Under the pieces are notes generated by a model. That model had not been told where the DNA came from. It saw only the letters and a list, made by a program, of their open reading frames with translations, and did no database searches. 47,656 nucleotides of DNA, from positions 1-47,656 of the IMG/VR virus record IMGVR_UViG_3300013104_000715. One strand, given 5' to 3'. The position numbers and the translations under genes were made by a program. Positions 10,953 through 20,665 of the stretch are shown here, one piece after another; within the stretch, counting starts at the first letter, position 1, and each line of letters opens with the position of its first letter. The stretch comes from a virus.

Positions 10953-11948
10953 TTAGTCATAACGTTTCCATCCATCGTTGAGAATCATATTATTTGCTAC
11001 GAACTGAGGGATGTTTGGGGCTACCTGTTGCTTATGTAGCAATCCACTGGTTCGATATTGATATGAGTGCGTATCTGCTGATTCTATCAAGCCCCTAATC
11101 GATTCGTAGGGAGCTTGATCGTTCCCTGCCAGAATTTTGCTTGGATCGAATGGTTCTGACAGCTTAAGTTCTTCTTTGATATCACTGTAGATCAGTTTTA
11201 TCAGTTCGTATAGTTCTTGGTCTGGGGCTTCAATATTTAATCCAAGGTCGCGCATGGCTTCTGTACGGTTTATTGTGTAGTCATGACTGCCAGACTCACT
11301 ACAAAGGAAGCTTATTATTTTCTCTGCACTGTTTTGATCATTAACCTGATTCGTTAGTAGCTTCCTAGCTAGCATCTGAATCTGTGATTGAGCCCTATAT
11401 ACATTACCCAGCACTAATGGGTGGACCTTTTCACTAAGCGACTGAAGTATTTGTGATAATCCGACACCATCGTTTATGCCGAACTCTTCCTTAGCTACAG
11501 CAATGTATCCTTTTACGTCCTCAACACTTACAGAATATGACTGCGGTTGATTATTAACCATAACCTGAGGATTCAACGGTCCATTTAGGCTTGGATCTAT
11601 CGGTCCAAGCGTGGCTTGTTTGGTCATAACAATCTTATTGGCACCAAGAGACATAAGGGTGCCTGAACTATGACACTTTGAGGGGATGATGATCTCCAAT
11701 TCCTTGCAGAACATTCTTACAAGATTGATTAGACTCCATGCAGCCAATGTGTCCCCGCCACGTGTATAAATAAAGAGGCTTATTTTAGGCACATCACCGA
11801 TTAGGTCAAGTTGGTTTACAAAAAGATCGAATGCCTCAGAGGATATTTGGGTTTCAAGCCCCGGTCGATCACCAGTGACATAAGTCAAAACCTTAGAGTC
11901 ACGCATCTCCTCTAAGTTTCTATATAGAGCCTTCCTTTGTTCGTACAT
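10953..11948 (-). CDS. SDH-family Clp-fold serine protease
   Basis: This 331-residue protein has the Clp/crotonase-fold core of the SDH (serine dehydrogenase proteinase) family: FIYTRGGDTLAAWSLI near 59-74, then a serine-nucleophile block KCHSSGTLMSLGANKIVM at 91-108 (S94 or S95), then the family hallmark LGPIDP at 114-119. There is no signal peptide or membrane anchor, so it should act in the cytoplasm. The C-terminal ~150 residues are helical. It lies downstream of cI on the same strand, where lambda carries rexAB, but a terminator separates it from cI. A role in phage exclusion or lysogen physiology is inferred, not shown. Confidence 0.85.
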   Translation of the reverse strand: MYEQRKALYRNLEEMRDSKVLTYVTGDRPGLETQISSEAFDLFVNQLDLIGDVPKISLFIYTRGGDTLAAWSLINLVRMFCKELEIIIPSKCHSSGTLMSLGANKIVMTKQATLGPIDPSLNGPLNPQVMVNNQPQSYSVSVEDVKGYIAVAKEEFGINDGVGLSQILQSLSEKVHPLVLGNVYRAQSQIQMLARKLLTNQVNDQNSAEKIISFLCSESGSHDYTINRTEAMRDLGLNIEAPDQELYELIKLIYSDIKEELKLSEPFDPSKILAGNDQAPYESIRGLIESADTHSYQYRTSGLLHKQQVAPNIPQFVANNMILNDGWKRYD

Positions 11949-12052
11949 GTTTTATATCTCCGTTTGCTTCATAGCGGGCTAAGCCCCAATCCGTTATCCT
12001 GGAAAAAGAAAAAAATAATTATTATTCGTTATCGGCTTGCTAAGGAAATACT

Positions 12053-12080
12053 TAAATAATTGTAAAGAATTTTCTTTCAA
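12053..12080 (-). promoter_or_regulatory. Candidate promoter of the protease gene
   Basis: On the minus strand TTGAAA (12075-12080) and TATTTA (12053-12058) are separated by 16 bases in AT-rich DNA. The terminator after cI suggests the protease needs its own promoter. The match is moderate. Confidence 0.35.
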
Positions 12081-12135
12081 ATAGTAATGAAAATGAGATA
12101 TTTCTTACATTCTGTAAATTTACGCAGTAATGCGT

Positions 12136-12161
12136 AAAAAAAAGGCCGCATTTCTGCGACC
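12136..12161 (-). terminator. Terminator after cI
   Basis: On the minus strand GGTCGCA-GAAA-TGCGGCC is followed by eight T residues, 30 bases past the cI stop. Confidence 0.9.
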
Positions 12162-12190
12162 TCACCCGAACGTCTCTTCAGGCCACAGGG

Positions 12191-12910
12191 CTAACGCTTA
12201 GGTGCTTGTCTGTACTTCCTATGCTCAACCATCACACCAATCACTCTTATCTTCTCTACATCAGAACGGTGAAGGGCGTGCACGTTATTGAGCGGGAAAA
12301 GCTCGAAGACTGGCTCGACGCCAGCTGCGCTGATTAGACGATAGCGTCTAAAGATGGTTTCCTCTGATCCACCCACCTGAGCCATAACAAAGTCGCCAGG
12401 AATTGGCTTAACTTTTGGATCGCAGATCACTATATCGCCAACGCTGAACTCGCTAACCATAGATTCATCTTCAATTATGAAGGCAAACGACGCACCAGAG
12501 GACTTAATGCTCGTCTGAAGGAAATCGACGCCTGCATCTACAGAGCTAATGCGAGAGTGCTCATCCCAATTGATAAGATGCCCGTTCGCAAGGATCGGCA
12601 CGGTCCTAAATTCTGGCTTCTTCTTCCCACTTTTTATACCTGAAGAAGAATCTATTCCTGAAACAGTCCCTGCATTCACTTCCCCGTGTTGCAGCCAAAG
12701 CCTATCCGTCTGAAGATAATCAGCAAGTTCGTTAAGCTTATCCTGACGTGGTATGGATTCTGCGTTGAGCCATTTACTTACAGCTCTAGATGTAACGCCT
12801 AACGCACGAGAAATCGCCATCCCGCGCCCATGAACATCCAACCCGTAATCCTTGCATGCCTGCGCTAGCCGCTGGGAGAATTCTTCGCGCAATTTATCTT
12901 TATGAACCAT
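12191..12910 (-). CDS. cI: CI-type prophage repressor (HTH plus S24 domain)
   Basis: This 239-residue repressor has an N-terminal XRE helix-turn-helix (MAISRALGVTSRAVSKWLN, 31-49), a Ser/Lys-rich linker (78-100) and a C-terminal S24/LexA-like domain. The catalytic serine is present (S150 in DESM). The catalytic lysine position, TFK in lambda CI, reads IFR (R188). The cleavage segment VPILANGHLINW has Leu-Ile where Ala-Gly is expected. RecA-stimulated self-cleavage is therefore doubtful. No Shine-Dalgarno precedes the ATG and a -10 box lies seven bases upstream, as for leaderless lambda cI mRNA from pRM. Confidence 0.95.
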   Translation of the reverse strand: MVHKDKLREEFSQRLAQACKDYGLDVHGRGMAISRALGVTSRAVSKWLNAESIPRQDKLNELADYLQTDRLWLQHGEVNAGTVSGIDSSSGIKSGKKKPEFRTVPILANGHLINWDEHSRISSVDAGVDFLQTSIKSSGASFAFIIEDESMVSEFSVGDIVICDPKVKPIPGDFVMAQVGGSEETIFRRYRLISAAGVEPVFELFPLNNVHALHRSDVEKIRVIGVMVEHRKYRQAPKR

Positions 12911-12975
12911 AAGTTCGATTGTAAACCACTTGCAAAAACTTTCAGTTCAATCATAATCTGTACTGAAAGTACGAA
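12911..12975. promoter_or_regulatory. OR operator region with pRM
   Basis: The intergenic DNA holds a dyad GTACT-GAA-AGTAC at 12960-12972, inverted copies TTTCAGT/ACTGAAA, and AGTACGAAAT shared with OL. On the minus strand TACAAT (12918-12923) lies seven bases from the cI ATG and is the likely pRM -10, with a poor -35 as is usual for activator-dependent pRM. Confidence 0.65.
12930..12957 (+). promoter_or_regulatory. pR promoter
   Basis: TTGCAA (12930-12935), a 16-base spacer and CATAAT (12952-12957) form a good rightward promoter upstream of cro. The operator elements overlap it. Confidence 0.65.
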
Positions 12976-12988
12976 ATGAGGAACTCCC

Positions 12989-13216
12989 ATGGAAATTCTG
13001 GAAGTAGCAATTAAAGGCGTAGGGATTCCCGAAGTAGCTAAGGCTTGTGGCGTAAGTGAGAGAGCTGTTTATAAATGGCTCAAAAACGGATTTCTGCCCA
13101 AGACTGAATTTTTCGGAAAGACAAGCTACGCAAGCACCATTGAAGAAATCTCTGGTGGTAAGTATCACGCAATGGACCTGCTCGACTTAAGTAAGAAAAA
13201 CCTTCTCGCAGCATAA
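12989..13216 (+). CDS. cro: Cro-like repressor
   Basis: This 75-residue protein is divergent from cI and first in the rightward operon. A helix-turn-helix is visible at VGIPEVAKACGVSERAVYKWLKNGFLP (about 11-37), typical of Cro/YdaS-type regulators. It should bind OR/OL and shut down early transcription and cI synthesis. It is preceded by GAGGAA. Confidence 0.88.
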   Translation: MEILEVAIKGVGIPEVAKACGVSERAVYKWLKNGFLPKTEFFGKTSYASTIEEISGGKYHAMDLLDLSKKNLLAA

Positions 13217-13224
13217 GCAACACC

Positions 13225-13255
13225 CGCTCCTTAACACCTCTGCGCTGAAAAGCGC
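13225..13255 (+). promoter_or_regulatory. nutR: nutR site (boxA and boxB)
   Basis: boxA CGCTCCTTAACA (13225-13236) and boxB GCGCTGAAAAGCGC (13242-13255) lie between cro and cII. The boxB is identical to nutL. Confidence 0.9.
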
Positions 13256-13358
13256 GCAATTACCTAAACCCCAACGTCATAGGGAATTAATCGTAATTTT
13301 CGAACTGTGGTCAATCCCACGGATAAACCACGCACCCAACTAATTATTCAACACTGGA

Positions 13359-13391
13359 AGTATTACGCATGGACATTGCAAGCACTCGCAA
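13359..13391 (-). promoter_or_regulatory. pRE, CII-activated promoter for cI
   Basis: On the minus strand TTGC-GAGTGC-TTGC (13378-13391) is an exact CII recognition pattern, TTGC-N6-TTGC, flanking the -35 position. AATACT (13359-13364) follows with a 17-base spacer. It overlaps the start of cII and points toward cI as in lambda. Confidence 0.85.
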
Positions 13392-13647
13392 TAAAGCGAA
13401 TGAAATTACAAGCAAGATTATGAATGGCATCGCCATTCGTGGTCAGCGCGCTGTAGCCAAAGCTGTAGGCGTTAATGAGTCACAAATTACACGCTGGAAA
13501 GAAACGATGATCCCCAAGATGGGAATGCTACTGGCAGTTCTGGAATGGGGAGTAGAGGACGAGGAATTGTCGAAGCTGGCTAAGTCAGTGGCGCGGTTAC
13601 TCACAAAAGAAAACGCCCCGGAATGTATCGAGCATTTCGAGGCGTAG
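13369..13647 (+). CDS. cII: CII transcription activator
   Basis: This 92-residue protein is a clear CII homologue: AVAKAVGVNESQITRWKETMIPKMGMLLAVLEWGVEDEE against KTAEAVGVDKSQISRWKRDWIPKFSMLLAVLEWGVVDDD in lambda. It activates pRE and, here, probably paQ. The C-terminus is short, as in the degradation-tag end of lambda CII. Its 3' end is overlapped by antisense oop RNA. Confidence 0.96.
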   Translation: MDIASTRNKANEITSKIMNGIAIRGQRAVAKAVGVNESQITRWKETMIPKMGMLLAVLEWGVEDEELSKLAKSVARLLTKENAPECIEHFEA

Positions 13648-13673
13648 TTGCAAATTAACTGGATCAATTCACA
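13604..13673 (-). ncRNA. oop: oop antisense RNA
   Basis: A short leftward transcript is predicted from pO to a terminator on the minus strand: CGCCTCG ... CGGGGCG (stem 13614-13644) followed by TTTTCTTTT. The length, about 70 nt, and the overlap with the 3' end of cII match lambda oop (77 nt), which lowers cII mRNA. Confidence 0.75.
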
Positions 13674-13679
13674 GGAGTA

Positions 13680-13707
13680 ATTATATGCGAAAGCGTAAAA
13701 ACATCAA
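13680..13707 (-). promoter_or_regulatory. pO promoter of oop RNA
   Basis: On the minus strand TTGATG (13702-13707), a 16-base spacer and a perfect TATAAT (13680-13685) lie upstream of the predicted oop start. Confidence 0.7.
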
Positions 13708-13846
13708 GCAAGAAGAGGAGCGGCGTTACCCGGATTCACCCGATCCAATCTTGATGGCAGCCGCCACAAACAAGCCGTTCGCTGAGCGGTTTATTGGTTG
13801 TTTCAGACTGGCGAAAGCAGGGGTGAAGAATGGGCAACGCAGCTAG
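13685..13846 (+). CDS. Small basic protein between cII and O
   Basis: This 53-residue ORF starts MRKRKNIKQEEERRYPDSPD behind GGAG and ends 17 bases inside the O gene. A small ORF at this site is usual in P22-like phages. It is rich in Arg/Lys at the start and has an AERFIGCFRLAKAG segment. No function is assigned. Confidence 0.65.
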   Translation: MRKRKNIKQEEERRYPDSPDPILMAAATNKPFAERFIGCFRLAKAGVKNGQRS

Positions 13847-14984
13847 ACACTTACAGCTGGTAGAAACCTCACCAGAGGTTCTGGAGCGGCGCGTGGCAGA
13901 TACCGATGATGGTTACACGCGAATAGCTAATGAGTTGCTTGAGGCCGTTGTTAGTAACGACCTTACAGCACGTCAAATCAAAGTCGTTTTAGCCGTGATC
14001 AGAAAAACATATGGATTTGGCAAGAAAACCGATTGGATCAGTGGAGAGCAACTTTCCAATCTTACAGGCCTCTCCAGACCACGATGCAGCACGACTAAAA
14101 ACGAGCTCATTAATATGCGCGTTTTGATTACAGAAGGTAAAAAGTTTGGCGTAAACAAAGTTTTATCTGAGTGGGAAATAGGAAAGCCAGCACGAAGGAG
14201 AGAATACGGCGCAACCAAGCATAAGGCAGGTCATATTTATGTCTTTGCGGCATCCGAGAACGGTCCGGTAAAAATCGGATTTACCACTCGAGATGCAGAA
14301 GAGCGCCTGCGTGAAGTCAATGGCTCCCGTTACTTCGGGGAATCAATTGCCAAATGCTTCTACATCAGTCAATTCAACCTTAATGCTGGAGCAATAGAGC
14401 CATCAGTTCATGAGCGTTTATCCAGCAAAATCATAAAAGGTGAGCTATTCGACATCCCTGTTGATGAAGCCATTAGCGTGATTTCACACGTGAGTAAAAC
14501 ATTTCTACCGTCAGTAACACCTAGTGTTACGCCATCGGTAACAGATGATTTCTCCCGTATGGAACACACAAAAGAAACTATTCAAAAGAAAAAAGAAACT
14601 ACCCCTAAATCCCCAGAGGGGAGCTTGGTTGAGCAGGAAGAAACCAAACCAGCCAAACCAGCAGCTACCAAGTTCACGTTCAACCGAGAACGATTCAAAG
14701 ACACTTGGAACTGCAAAGCCAGTAAGCATGGATTGCCACGTATCGTTAGCATCAGCACCACTACCGAGAAAGGCATTAAGCGACTGTACGAGTCCCACCT
14801 GAAGCACTGCAAAGAAACCAAACGCAACCCTGTAGACATCGACACTTTCATCAACGGCTACATCGAGTTTGGATACACGCCGACGCCTTTCGCTATGGGA
14901 GAGAATCCTGCCGGCAAGAAGTACGGCATCGACACCGCGCTAACCCAAAGAATCATCGACCAAGTAATCAGTCAGGAGGTTTGA
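13830..14984 (+). CDS. O: Replication initiator O with inserted GIY-YIG domain
   Basis: This 384-residue protein starts like phage O proteins. Residues 20-118 (RVADTDDGYTRIANELLEA, IRKTYGFGKKTDWIS, LTGLSRPRCSTTKNELI) are the winged-helix origin-binding domain. Residues ~133-219 are an insert resembling the T5orf172/MUG113 GIY-YIG family: GHIYVFA, GPVKIGFTTRDAEERLREVN, AIEPSVHERL, KGELFDIP. Then come a repeat SVTPSVTPSVT encoded by iteron-like DNA, a charged linker and a C-terminal domain (~275-384) that should contact the helicase. Lambda O has no such insert. The helicase gene starts one base after the stop. Confidence 0.88.
   Translation: MGNAARHLQLVETSPEVLERRVADTDDGYTRIANELLEAVVSNDLTARQIKVVLAVIRKTYGFGKKTDWISGEQLSNLTGLSRPRCSTTKNELINMRVLITEGKKFGVNKVLSEWEIGKPARRREYGATKHKAGHIYVFAASENGPVKIGFTTRDAEERLREVNGSRYFGESIAKCFYISQFNLNAGAIEPSVHERLSSKIIKGELFDIPVDEAISVISHVSKTFLPSVTPSVTPSVTDDFSRMEHTKETIQKKKETTPKSPEGSLVEQEETKPAKPAATKFTFNRERFKDTWNCKASKHGLPRIVSISTTTEKGIKRLYESHLKHCKETKRNPVDIDTFINGYIEFGYTPTPFAMGENPAGKKYGIDTALTQRIIDQVISQEV
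14505..14605 (+). other. Predicted replication origin inside O
   Basis: Three repeats occur between 14508 and 14545: TCAGTAACACC, AGTGTTACGCC (inverted core) and TCGGTAACAGA. The first two form a perfect dyad GTAACAC-CTA-GTGTTAC at 14514-14530. A purine/AT-rich tract follows at about 14562-14605. Iterons in the middle of O next to an AT-rich stretch are the layout of lambda ori. Confidence 0.6.
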
Positions 14985-14985
14985 A

Positions 14986-16338
14986 ATGGAGAGTTATGAA
15001 TTTGAGGAGCTTCTGGTTGGTTCGATGATTGTGAAAGGCGATCACATCGACTGCCGAGACATTGCTAACAAGCTACCTGCTGAAGCCTTTGAGAACTTCC
15101 ACCTACGCCGCATGTACACCGTCATCGTAGCGCTGCTGAACAAGGCAGAGCCTACCGACATGTTCACCGTGCAGAACAGTGTGCCGGAAGAGACCAAGAA
15201 CTTCGTGCTTGAGGTGGCAACCCGTTGCCGTTCCGCGGCAAACATCAAGGCGTGGGCCAAGCGAGTTCGCCAGTGCTGGATGCTGCGACAGGGAGAGTCT
15301 GAATTACTCAAAGCTGCTGAGTTGCTCCGCGGTGCATCTACGCATGATTTGGGCGAGAGACTGGCCGAAGTTTCCGGGATGCTTTCCAAGCTTCAGTTCG
15401 AAACCAATGACCGCTTACCGCGGCGAATTGGCGACATGCTGGATGACTACATGGAAGTGCTGGAGAAGCGCATGAAAGGCGCAGAGTCAGGCATGTACCT
15501 GAAGACCGGCATTGATGCCATGGACGATGAGTATGGTGGATTTGACCGAACGGACTTGATCATCATCGCCGGGCGCCCGGGCATGGGTAAGACAGAGCTG
15601 GCAATTAACATCGCAAACTCAATCGGACGGCAGAAGGGGAAGGGTCTGCTTGTATCGATGGAAATGTCTGACATGCAGGTCGTTGAGCGCCACGTTGCTG
15701 ACCGAGCTGGCCTGTCAGTAGGTGCGCTGCGTAACCCACTGAACATGATTGATGAGCAATACACGCGACTCACCGCGGCTACTGGCATGTTGATCGAAGA
15801 AGAAAACTACGTTATCGACGGCTCTTTCACAGTGGACGAAATCATTAGCCACGCAGAGCGTATGAATATGGACGGCGGTCTTAGCTTCCTGACTATCGAC
15901 TACCTCGGCCTGATGAAGAAATCTAAAGCGGAACGTAACGATATCGCCATCGGTGAAATCACCAGCAAGCTTAAGCAGTTCTGCCTTCGCAACAAAGTCC
16001 CTGTAATCCTCCTTTCCCAGCTTAACCGCGGCGTTGAATCTCGCATTGATAAGCGGCCGGGTCTTGGCGACCTGAAGGACTCAAGCTCAATCGAGCAGGA
16101 TGCGGATGTGATTATCTTCCCTTATCGAGACGAAGTTTACGACGAGCAAAGCGACATGAAAGGCATTGCTGAAATCATCGTTGGCAAATATCGGTCTGGC
16201 AAGCCCGGCACCTTCTACATGGGCTGGAAGAACGGTCACTTTGTGAATATCGACCAAGCGGATGCCGCGAAGAAGTACGCAGAGAACACCAACAAGAAGT
16301 CAGCAGCGGATAACAACGCATGGCGAGGGGCCGCATGA
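14986..16338 (+). CDS. DnaB-type replicative helicase
   Basis: This 450-residue protein has an N-terminal DnaB-N domain (~1-100), a linker, and a RecA-like helicase domain. Walker A is GRPGMGKT (196-203). Walker B is in FLTIDYLGLM near 302-311, and LLSQLNRGVESR and SSSIEQDADVIIFPYR are typical DnaB motifs. It replaces lambda P: the phage brings its own helicase, loaded at the origin by O. The ATG lies one base past the O stop behind CAGGAGG. Confidence 0.97.
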   Translation: MESYEFEELLVGSMIVKGDHIDCRDIANKLPAEAFENFHLRRMYTVIVALLNKAEPTDMFTVQNSVPEETKNFVLEVATRCRSAANIKAWAKRVRQCWMLRQGESELLKAAELLRGASTHDLGERLAEVSGMLSKLQFETNDRLPRRIGDMLDDYMEVLEKRMKGAESGMYLKTGIDAMDDEYGGFDRTDLIIIAGRPGMGKTELAINIANSIGRQKGKGLLVSMEMSDMQVVERHVADRAGLSVGALRNPLNMIDEQYTRLTAATGMLIEEENYVIDGSFTVDEIISHAERMNMDGGLSFLTIDYLGLMKKSKAERNDIAIGEITSKLKQFCLRNKVPVILLSQLNRGVESRIDKRPGLGDLKDSSSIEQDADVIIFPYRDEVYDEQSDMKGIAEIIVGKYRSGKPGTFYMGWKNGHFVNIDQADAAKKYAENTNKKSAADNNAWRGAA

Positions 16339-16568
16339 TGCTAGGTGAATGGATAAAAGACCAAGTATTTAAAGCAGAACGCGCCGAATCCGACCGTAAA
16401 TTTACCCTCTTGTGCAAACTCCCTGAAAACACCTTTGCCGCCATCTACGCAGATTGCGCGAAGGATGACGTCTGGGCTGGATCTTTGTACAACGGTGAAT
16501 ACTTTCACGAAGGTTTGATTTATTCGGCATCACTAACAAGAAACGAAGGCTACGAAGCCTTTCTTTAG
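16335..16568 (+). CDS. Small nin-region protein
   Basis: This 77-residue protein starts MMLGEWIKDQVFKAERAESD, its ATG overlapping the helicase stop. It has a mixed fold with FAAIYADCAKDDVWAG and a C-terminal LTRNEGYEAFL. No family is recognised. Confidence 0.65.
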   Translation: MMLGEWIKDQVFKAERAESDRKFTLLCKLPENTFAAIYADCAKDDVWAGSLYNGEYFHEGLIYSASLTRNEGYEAFL

Positions 16569-16577
16569 GAGAAGAAT

Positions 16578-16745
16578 ATGAGCAAAACAAAGGTTCACGT
16601 GATTATCCCTTATCAATCTGAATCAGCATGCGGCATCAAAAATCCACACAGGAACGCCATGTATAGAGATATGGTCACATGCCCAAGCTGCAAGAAAACA
16701 GAGCATTACAAAAACCTTTCGAGAGTCAAAAAGGTGAAATCATGA
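16578..16745 (+). CDS. Small CxxC protein
   Basis: This 55-residue ORF starts MSKTKVHVIIPYQSESACG behind AGGAGAAG. It has a VTCPSCKKTEHYKN segment that may form half a zinc site. Its stop overlaps the next start (ATGA). Function is unknown. Confidence 0.6.
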   Translation: MSKTKVHVIIPYQSESACGIKNPHRNAMYRDMVTCPSCKKTEHYKNLSRVKKVKS

Positions 16746-16975
16746 TGGACAAAAACCGAGAAGCGTTTGAAGCGTGGTTTAACGACCCTGAAAAGGTTGA
16801 TATTCGTGAAGCCTACGCATGGAAAGTATGGCAGGCATCCCGACAGGCGCTTGAGGTTGACCTAGAAAACGTCAACCACGTTCAAGTTGTAGAGGGCACT
16901 TTTTACCTCAGCGAGATCGAGGTTAACGAGCACCTGACATCTCTCGGAATTCGAGTAAATGGGAATGAAGAATGA
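16742..16975 (+). CDS. Small phage protein, function unknown
   Basis: This 77-residue protein starts MMDKNREAFEAWFNDPEKV. The pattern of AFEAWF followed by YAWKVWQASRQA is frequent at the start of enterophage proteins of unknown role. It has AAAGGTGA as ribosome binding site and overlaps both neighbours by four bases. Confidence 0.7.
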   Translation: MMDKNREAFEAWFNDPEKVDIREAYAWKVWQASRQALEVDLENVNHVQVVEGTFYLSEIEVNEHLTSLGIRVNGNEE

Positions 16976-17148
16976 GCACCAATATAAAAGCAACGTGCAG
17001 CAAATGCGGAAATGAATTATTGATTGACCCGACAGTTATTCTAACCTCTCTGCCTCCTTCCCCCTCTTTTTATTGCAAGGTTTGCAACCCGAATCAGCAC
17101 GAGCGTATAACAAATTCACAACGATATTTAAGGGGATGGAAGCCATGA
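16972..17148 (+). CDS. Small zinc-finger-like protein
   Basis: This 58-residue ORF starts MSTNIKATCSKCGNELLID and has a second pair CKVCN about 25 residues later, so a four-cysteine zinc ribbon is likely. The pyrimidine-rich CCTCCTTCCCCCTC stretch in its middle encodes LPPSPS. It overlaps the genes on both sides by four bases. Confidence 0.65.
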   Translation: MSTNIKATCSKCGNELLIDPTVILTSLPPSPSFYCKVCNPNQHERITNSQRYLRGWKP

Positions 17149-19580: not shown

Positions 19581-19939
19581 GTGAATATCGAATAGAGCTT
19601 CCATGGCCGCCCGGTAATAACCACCTCTTCTCAGTATTCCGAGGGCGAAAGATAAAGAGCAAGAAGGGAAGGGAATACACAGCAGCAGTAATCAAGCAGA
19701 TCACCGAAGCAAATCAGCAGTACAACCTCGCCGGCAAGCTCAAAGTAAAAATCTCAGCATACCCGCCAACACGCGCTCGTCGTGACCTAGACAACCTATT
19801 CAAAGCGCCACTCGACTCACTCACACAGGCCTGCGTAATTGCAGATGACAGCCTGATTGATGACGTGCGCATGGTCCGCTGCGAAGTGGTGAAGGGCGGT
19901 AGGTTGGAAATATTAATTACAGAATTGGAGGTTTCGTGA
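19577..19939 (+). CDS. rusA: RusA Holliday-junction resolvase
   Basis: This 120-residue endonuclease cleaves four-way junctions made during replication and recombination. Family motifs are visible: LPWPPGNNHLF at the start, then RARRDLDNLFKAPLDSL with the acidic residues that bind metal, and ADDSLIDDVRM. It is near the usual length of 120 residues. It ends overlapping the methyltransferase start. Confidence 0.96.
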   Translation: MSEYRIELPWPPGNNHLFSVFRGRKIKSKKGREYTAAVIKQITEANQQYNLAGKLKVKISAYPPTRARRDLDNLFKAPLDSLTQACVIADDSLIDDVRMVRCEVVKGGRLEILITELEVS

Positions 19940-20652
19940 ATGAGTTGGCTCTTTTCGCAGGCGCTGGCGGAGGAATACTCGGCGGCCACCTGCTCGGATG
20001 GAACACAGTATGCGCAGTTGAACGTGATGCCTACGCCGCACAAGTTTTGGCGCAACGACAAAACGATAGAATTCTCAAACCTTTCCCGATTTGGTCTGAC
20101 GTGTGCAGTTTTGACGGAAAGCCATGGAGAGGAGTTGTTGATGTCATTTCTGGCGGCTTCCCATGTCAAGACATTAGTTCGGCCGGTCGAGGAGCTGGGA
20201 TCGAGGGAGAGAAATCAGGGCTGTGGAGCGAGATGGCAAGAATCAGCGATGAAGTACGACCTCAATTCGTCTTCGTGGAAAACTCACCACTCCTTGTGGG
20301 AAGAGGGCTTGCCAGAGTCGTCGGTGACCTTGCCGAAATTGGGTTTGATTGTCGATGGAGTCGTGTGGCAGCAAAAGAATGTGGCGCGCCTCATAAGCGA
20401 GACCGTTTGTGGCTGGTCGGGAGAAATGTTCGCGACACCTCAAGCGAGGGATTACCGGTCTGGTTCTCTGGACAGGTGGAACGACCCGAGGAGGTCACGG
20501 AACCTGAACGACCAAATTGGTGGCCTTCTGAACCCGGAATTCGTCGAGTGGATGATGGGATGGCCCATCGGGTGGACAGAATTAAAGCCCTTGGCAATGG
20601 ACAAGTTCCAAGAGTGGCGGCAGCAGCATTCAGCATGCTTGGAAAAAAATAA
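19936..20652 (+). CDS. C5-type DNA cytosine methyltransferase
   Basis: This 238-residue protein has the ordered motifs of C5 methyltransferases: FAGAGGG (7-13, AdoMet site), GGFPCQDIS with nucleophile C77, FVENSP (113-118, usually ENV), RDRLW (155-159) and GNGQVPR (220-226). The target-recognition part between 160 and 205 is very short, typical of phage stand-alone enzymes. It starts with GTG, four bases from GGAGG. A second frame, 19940-20665, covers the entire gene. It may protect phage DNA from host restriction. Confidence 0.93.
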   Translation: MNELALFAGAGGGILGGHLLGWNTVCAVERDAYAAQVLAQRQNDRILKPFPIWSDVCSFDGKPWRGVVDVISGGFPCQDISSAGRGAGIEGEKSGLWSEMARISDEVRPQFVFVENSPLLVGRGLARVVGDLAEIGFDCRWSRVAAKECGAPHKRDRLWLVGRNVRDTSSEGLPVWFSGQVERPEEVTEPERPNWWPSEPGIRRVDDGMAHRVDRIKALGNGQVPRVAAAAFSMLGKK

Positions 20653-20665
20653 GGAGGCAGCATGA
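19940..20665 (+). CDS. Overlapping ORF in another frame of the methyltransferase gene
   Basis: This 241-codon frame is shifted +1 from the methyltransferase and covers its length. It begins MSWLFSQALAEEYSAATCSDG and contains SSSWKTHHSLWEEGLPES, LPKLGLIVDGVVW and FVEWMMGWPIGWTELKPL. From memory these resemble motifs of a phage protein family usually labelled hypothetical (SWKTxQ, WGMxxDG, WLMGWPIGWT). Its ATG is eight bases from GGAGG, better than the methyltransferase GTG, and its TGA overlaps the next ATG. No known function; dual coding is inferred. Confidence 0.6.
   Translation: MSWLFSQALAEEYSAATCSDGTQYAQLNVMPTPHKFWRNDKTIEFSNLSRFGLTCAVLTESHGEELLMSFLAASHVKTLVRPVEELGSRERNQGCGARWQESAMKYDLNSSSWKTHHSLWEEGLPESSVTLPKLGLIVDGVVWQQKNVARLISETVCGWSGEMFATPQARDYRSGSLDRWNDPRRSRNLNDQIGGLLNPEFVEWMMGWPIGWTELKPLAMDKFQEWRQQHSACLEKNKEAA

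Follow-up and report, generated by a model that had tools for sequence, protein, structure and literature searches.

A T5orf172/MUG113-like GIY-YIG domain within the lambda O-type replication initiator of a phage

The closest characterised relative in kind of the protein described here is ICP1 Odn (Gp88), an origin-directed nuclease that keeps the catalytic Arg and Glu and requires iterons for cutting (PMC8263062). Odn cuts iteron DNA despite lacking the His or Tyr that helix 1 usually carries, and its E180A form is catalytically inactive (PMC8263062). According to Barth and colleagues, homing genes of the T5orf172 type lie close to essential phage genes, and Odn and Odn-like proteins join T5orf172 to RepA_N domains whose relatives occur in satellites (PMC10448857). 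Proteins of the Odn type show how phages can make a weapon of origin recognition, by joining it to a GIY-YIG nuclease.

Within the limited collection of literature searched, a GIY-YIG domain is not described for any phage O protein or other complete initiator. Profile matches, a fold prediction, the catalytic residues and a survey of relatives support such a domain inside the O initiator encoded in a 47,656-base stretch of phage DNA from IMG/VR (hereafter the window, meaning the whole stretch analysed). With a putative nuclease inside the phage's own intact initiator, the same protein would have to start replication yet spare its own origin.

The initiator gene and its origin

The ORF at 13830-14984 encodes an O replication initiator, as the initial annotation had proposed. 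Residues 21-115 match Phage_rep_O (Pfam) at 126.6 bits (cut-off 28.7; E 5.4e-37), and by sequence the protein is a genuine Phage_rep_O (lambda O-type) initiator. It is the sole replication initiator detected in this phage. The C-terminal domain of lambda O recruits helicase, and by analogy the C-terminal domain here, modelled by AlphaFold2 in the full-length protein with pLDDT of about 87-94 over residues 281-370, is expected to contact the helicase. The early region of the window is lambda-type, with cI, a cro-like gene and cII, then O and the DnaB-type helicase (Table 1).

Two other features of the window were recorded. A gene for a 331-aa ClpP-like SDH-type serine protease (10953-11948, minus strand) adjoins cI, an unusual cargo for that place. 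At 19936-20665, ORFs of 238 and 241 aa in different frames overlap almost completely; one matches the N-terminal part of DNA_methylase, and the annotation of Salmonella phage S9-5 has two genes at the counterpart of this region.

As in lambda O-type initiators, iterons lie within the O gene between the coding regions of the two O domains. The four-iteron array scores 76 against a control maximum of 57, and none of 58 control windows scores as high, so the iteron-coding linker noted at the outset is real. The spacing of 20, 24 and 23 is identical in the window and in the insertless relatives L002, L398 and L399; the iterons themselves differ in sequence from those of relatives. Because the spacing is intact and the same as in relatives, O should still work. 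The A-rich stretch that follows is the probable unwinding region, by analogy with lambda ori. In relatives, the four iterons begin directly 3' of the O-N coding region, right after SEW/SDW. In the window, the insert takes up exactly the stretch from the end of the origin-binding domain to iteron 1, which it directly adjoins.

Table 1. Coordinates of the O gene, its domains, the origin elements and the insert in the window
Feature	Position	Strand	Detail or basis
O ORF	13830-14984	+	384 aa, open throughout
O N-terminal domain (winged-helix, origin-binding), residues 1-117	13830-14180	+	Pfam Phage_rep_O and NCBIfam TIGR01610
In-frame insertion of ~99 codons, residues about 119-217	about 14184-14479	+	Alignment with insertless O proteins
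GIY-YIG domain core, residues 134-217	14229-14480	+	T5orf172/MUG113 profiles, AlphaFold2, nearest structures Slx1 and I-TevI
Y137 codon, Tyr of GIY motif	14238-14240	+	Invariant with Odn and Mx8 p19; near-invariant against 29 relatives
R159 codon, catalytic Arg position	14304-14306	+	Invariant in both alignments
E190 codon, catalytic Glu position	14397-14399	+	Aligns with Odn E180
Origin iteron 1	14480-14499	+	Iteron scoring
Origin iteron 2	14500-14519	+	Iteron scoring
Origin iteron 3	14524-14543	+	Iteron scoring
Origin iteron 4	14547-14566	+	Iteron scoring
A-rich stretch after iterons	14567-14610	+	Kept in relatives, sequence comparison
O C-terminal domain, residues 279-384	14664-14981	+	Kept in relatives
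DnaB-family replicative helicase gene, directly 3' of O	14986-16338	+	Pfam DnaB_C, E 2.6e-66

Profile, residues and predicted fold of the insert

The initial annotation had placed a GIY-YIG (T5orf172/MUG113-like) domain between the origin-binding domain and the iteron-coding linker, and both the identification and the position held, with the bounds now refined (Table 1). T5orf172 and MUG113 are both GIY-YIG families. When the insert was scanned alone, both profiles scored above their gathering cut-offs (T5orf172, 39.2 bits, E 1.1e-9, cut-off 20; MUG113, 35.8 bits, cut-off 22.3). In the full-length protein, MUG113 matches residues 147-220 at 33.1 bits (cut-off 22.3, E 8e-8). All five motifs named in the initial annotation are present in the family order: GHIYVF (134-139), VKIGFTT (147-153), ERLREVN (158-164), VHERL within EPSVHERL (190-197) and GELFDIP (204-210).

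Individual residues were compared in two alignments, one with 29 relatives and one with Odn and p19 of Myxococcus phage Mx8. The catalytic Tyr, Arg and Glu of the GIY-YIG superfamily are all kept (Y137, R159 and E190), and these three, like K148, G150, H194, E205 and F207, fall at positions where Odn, Mx8 p19 and other family members do not vary. Departures from the consensus are I201, where most relatives have a near-invariant Arg, and L206, which replaces the Trp of the GEWF form.

The fold is probably of the GIY-YIG kind, and structure prediction did not refute the initial annotation on this point. An AlphaFold2 model of the insert alone (pLDDT 80, pTM 0.70) has the expected strand-strand-helix-strand-helix-helix order. 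The nearest solved structures by VIA-align, at modest scores, are the GIY-YIG endonuclease Slx1, within the first seven rows at Z 5.6-6.8, and I-TevI at Z 4.5. Because a Foldseek search of the PDB, taken alone, returned nothing at E <= 0.001 (best Slx1, E 0.29), this structural evidence is supportive rather than decisive. No GIY relatives of the insert were found in the PDB by sequence. The full-length AlphaFold2 model has low confidence over the insert because stand-alone GIY sequences were misaligned, and the insert-only model was used in its place.

Distribution in relatives and in other phages

We collected 80 IMG/VR loci with related O proteins, encoded by ORFs mostly of 270-380 aa. The window is the only one of these loci with the GIY and O profiles in a single ORF, and none of about 75 IMG/VR O relatives has the insert. 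The closest relatives are 60-70% identical to O before residue 117 (68% for the N-terminal domain against insertless relatives) and 66-83% identical from about residue 217 onwards (60-83% for the C-terminal domain, residues 279-384), and they have no sequence between these flanks. O relatives occur in 59 of 392 genomes of the host-side family. No alignment among those listed for these genomes crosses residues 129-216; the GIY profile was run on the unusually long O matches, and no O+GIY fusion was found among the O matches. L398 and L399, the nearest O relatives in these genomes, are insertless with the same flanks, and the O proteins of Yersinia phages vB_YenM_21.09 and 06.16-1 also lack the insert.

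Wider searches gave the same picture. No O+GIY fusion was found when GIY-bearing loci of 395 genomes sampled from the order were searched, or by megablast in E. coli genomes. A phage and plasmid search with O gave no match covering at least 80%, and a first profile search of genome contigs with the GIY alignment gave no match. The insert is a singleton across all data searched, from which entries for this genome or one very close to it may have been left out; a singleton gives no measure of selection on the active site, and this weighs against the active-nuclease reading. The initial annotation knew of no nuclease-like module at this site in classical O proteins, and its alternative of an ordinary linker common to all O proteins of the clade did not hold, as relatives lack the segment. 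Alignment identifies it as a clean in-frame insertion absent from close relatives, and insertless alleles exist at the same site in O genes 65-70% identical.

A different insert was seen in a 501-aa Phage_rep_O protein of genome G591 (L386:627-2129, minus strand), in the linker past the iteron region. It carries a PD-(D/E)XK-like pattern (GRIDLLASN...GIEIDR...DKSAVKLK) and has no Pfam match. The O protein of another phage, Providencia phage PSTCR7lys (L403), has a copy 52% identical to it, and Fels-1 and Klebsiella phages have weaker ones. The L386 protein is possibly a second kind of nuclease-bearing initiator.

Fusions similar to that in the window were found only in unrelated phages. In Mx8 p19 an initiator domain (1-118) is followed by a MUG113 domain (141-204) and then a C-terminal part, and the gene lies directly 5' of a DnaC-like gene. 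This protein is the only complete member of phrog_8130 found in this analysis, and the window insert in turn has phrog_8130 as its top match among PHROGs. The layout is that of O here, but the initiator family is unrelated, the GIY domains are only about 30% identical and no comparable iteron array was found in the p19 gene. A tree of 59 GIY domains does not place the insert and has Mx8 p19 in a different part, so the initiator-GIY fusions here and in Mx8 are likely independent. Descent of the insert from an initiator-linked T5orf172 clade is unsupported, as the tree does not place it. Within the 59-domain set the highest identity to the insert is 39%, with Acinetobacter phage protein P0002, encoded just 5' of a primosomal gene; an initiator-type winged helix at the N-terminus of P0002 was considered and not established.

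Stand-alone T5orf172 genes lie directly 5' of initiators in several unrelated phages, among them Salmonella phage S107, E. coli phage Bas106 and Acinetobacter phage BUCT628. They share the domain superfamily and neighbourhood of the insert but are separate genes, and most belong to a clade with the signature MPGIYKIG...REFF, whereas the insert reads ENGPVKIG...GELF. This clade (L250-L329, e.g. L308:3444-4088) is labelled 'unknown function' in PHROGs. The clade was chosen since early examples were initiator-linked. Its IMG/VR set comprises 58 distinct genes; a downstream ORF could be read for 56 of them, and in 55 cases the two genes abut or overlap, with gaps of -74 to +12 bases. Scans of 26 of the downstream proteins gave 23 matches to the initiator family phrog_270 and three to Phage_rep_O. 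The broader idea that GIY genes in general adjoin initiators was rejected: of 36 small GIY ORFs in a chromosomal sample taken without selection, only 1 was so linked, and initiator linkage is therefore a trait of one phage clade. The slot 5' of initiators was also found with HNH or antirepressor genes. The BUCT628 protein (L095:1180-1797; 205 aa) has a C-terminal T5orf172 domain after an N-terminal half that matches no assigned domain, and is encoded just 5' of a primosomal gene that contains three repeats of 23 bp; it is a possible Odn-like protein. Repeated coupling of T5orf172 genes to initiators in unrelated phages is a testable wider link.

Possible roles and comparison with known systems

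The initial annotation had offered a domesticated homing-type domain, origin nicking or non-catalytic DNA binding as possible roles. The catalytic residue set and the precedent of Odn favour, but do not establish, an active, origin-tethered nuclease. On our preferred reading, to which we assign a probability of roughly 0.4, the T5orf172/MUG113-type domain inserted in O would be an active iteron-tethered nuclease that acts mainly against rival replicons and is self-protected by the insert. The O N-domain would carry the GIY-YIG domain to iterons, and the tethered domain would cut or nick the DNA flanking iterons to which O is bound, in the way that Odn acts on the origins of satellites. The main targets would be satellites, co-infecting phages and insertless alleles with matching iterons. 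Because the insert sits between O-N and iteron 1, the sequence found next to iteron 1 in genes lacking the insert is moved away from the origin of this phage; by inference, this could move the flanking cleavage site away from its own iteron 1 and protect it in the manner of a homing endonuclease.

Three further points weigh against a tethered nuclease. It would damage its own iterons unless cleavage needs a separate site, the domain departs from the family consensus at I201 and L206, and no candidate target replicon was found. A further step, which we consider possible but doubtful, is that O represents a dual-function initiator in which one iteron-binding domain would both start the phage's own replication and cut competing origins while the insert protects its own; this would be a new class that arose at least twice, here and in Mx8 p19. 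If active, the protein would offer a simple system for studying the use of one DNA-binding domain by both an initiator and a nuclease, and the ways in which replication modules turn into weapons between phages and satellites.

Alternatively, the GIY-YIG fold may have been kept as a DNA-binding, dimerising or regulatory unit of O that does not cleave. The location within an essential initiator, beside the phage's own origin, fits such a role, as do the I201 and L206 deviations, and initiators with a fusion must tolerate the domain. Yet every residue usually required for catalysis is present, and neither the reading frame nor the domain order shows decay; we regard this alternative as unlikely.

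Less probable still, the domain could nick near iteron 1 of its own origin, and the nick could either release torsion or begin a second mode of replication of the rolling-circle type. Its coding region is directly beside iteron 1 and near the A-rich region, and T5orf172 genes are linked to initiators of several families. However, close relatives without the domain have identical iteron spacing, and no new need for nicking is apparent because the O protein of the Yersinia phage, which lacks the insert, is partnered by the same DnaB-type helicase.

Equally improbable is a selfish homing endonuclease, recently captured in-frame and tolerated by O, which would spread by cleaving O genes that lack it and bring the phage no advantage: its clean presence or absence against 65-70% identical O genes, the slot 5' of initiators that can carry GIY, HNH or antirepressor genes, and the frequent location of homing genes near or within essential phage genes (PMC10448857) are set against the lack of an Rfam intron match (E <= 1, 12000-17000), of a Pfam intein domain in O and of an ATG-type internal start near the GIY domain, against a base composition like that of the remainder of O, and against the failure to find a ready target allele, since insertless relatives have different iterons.

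Returning to the tethered nuclease and its precedent, Odn and O each combine a T5orf172 GIY-YIG domain with an origin-binding domain in one protein, Odn E180 aligns with E190, and both Odn and the insert lack the usual helix-1 His/Tyr. The origin-binding domain of Odn is RepA_N-type (Pfam DUF6945), whereas that of O is Phage_rep_O, and the nuclease is C-terminal in Odn but lies inside a complete lambda-type O here. Odn has no initiator C-terminal half and attacks a satellite; O keeps the conserved C-terminal domain and seems to be the phage's own initiator. PD-lambda-1, annotated in E. coli phage PhiR26_1, shares with the insert a T5orf172 domain joined to another domain, but it is about 500 aa long and not an initiator, and its record names it after a defence system. 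Lambda-type O proteins such as those of vB_YenM_21.09, L002, L398 and L399 have the same N- and C-domains but no insert. Of these, vB_YenM_21.09 has a DnaB-type helicase 3' of O, as here, and the other three have four iterons with the spacing seen in the window.
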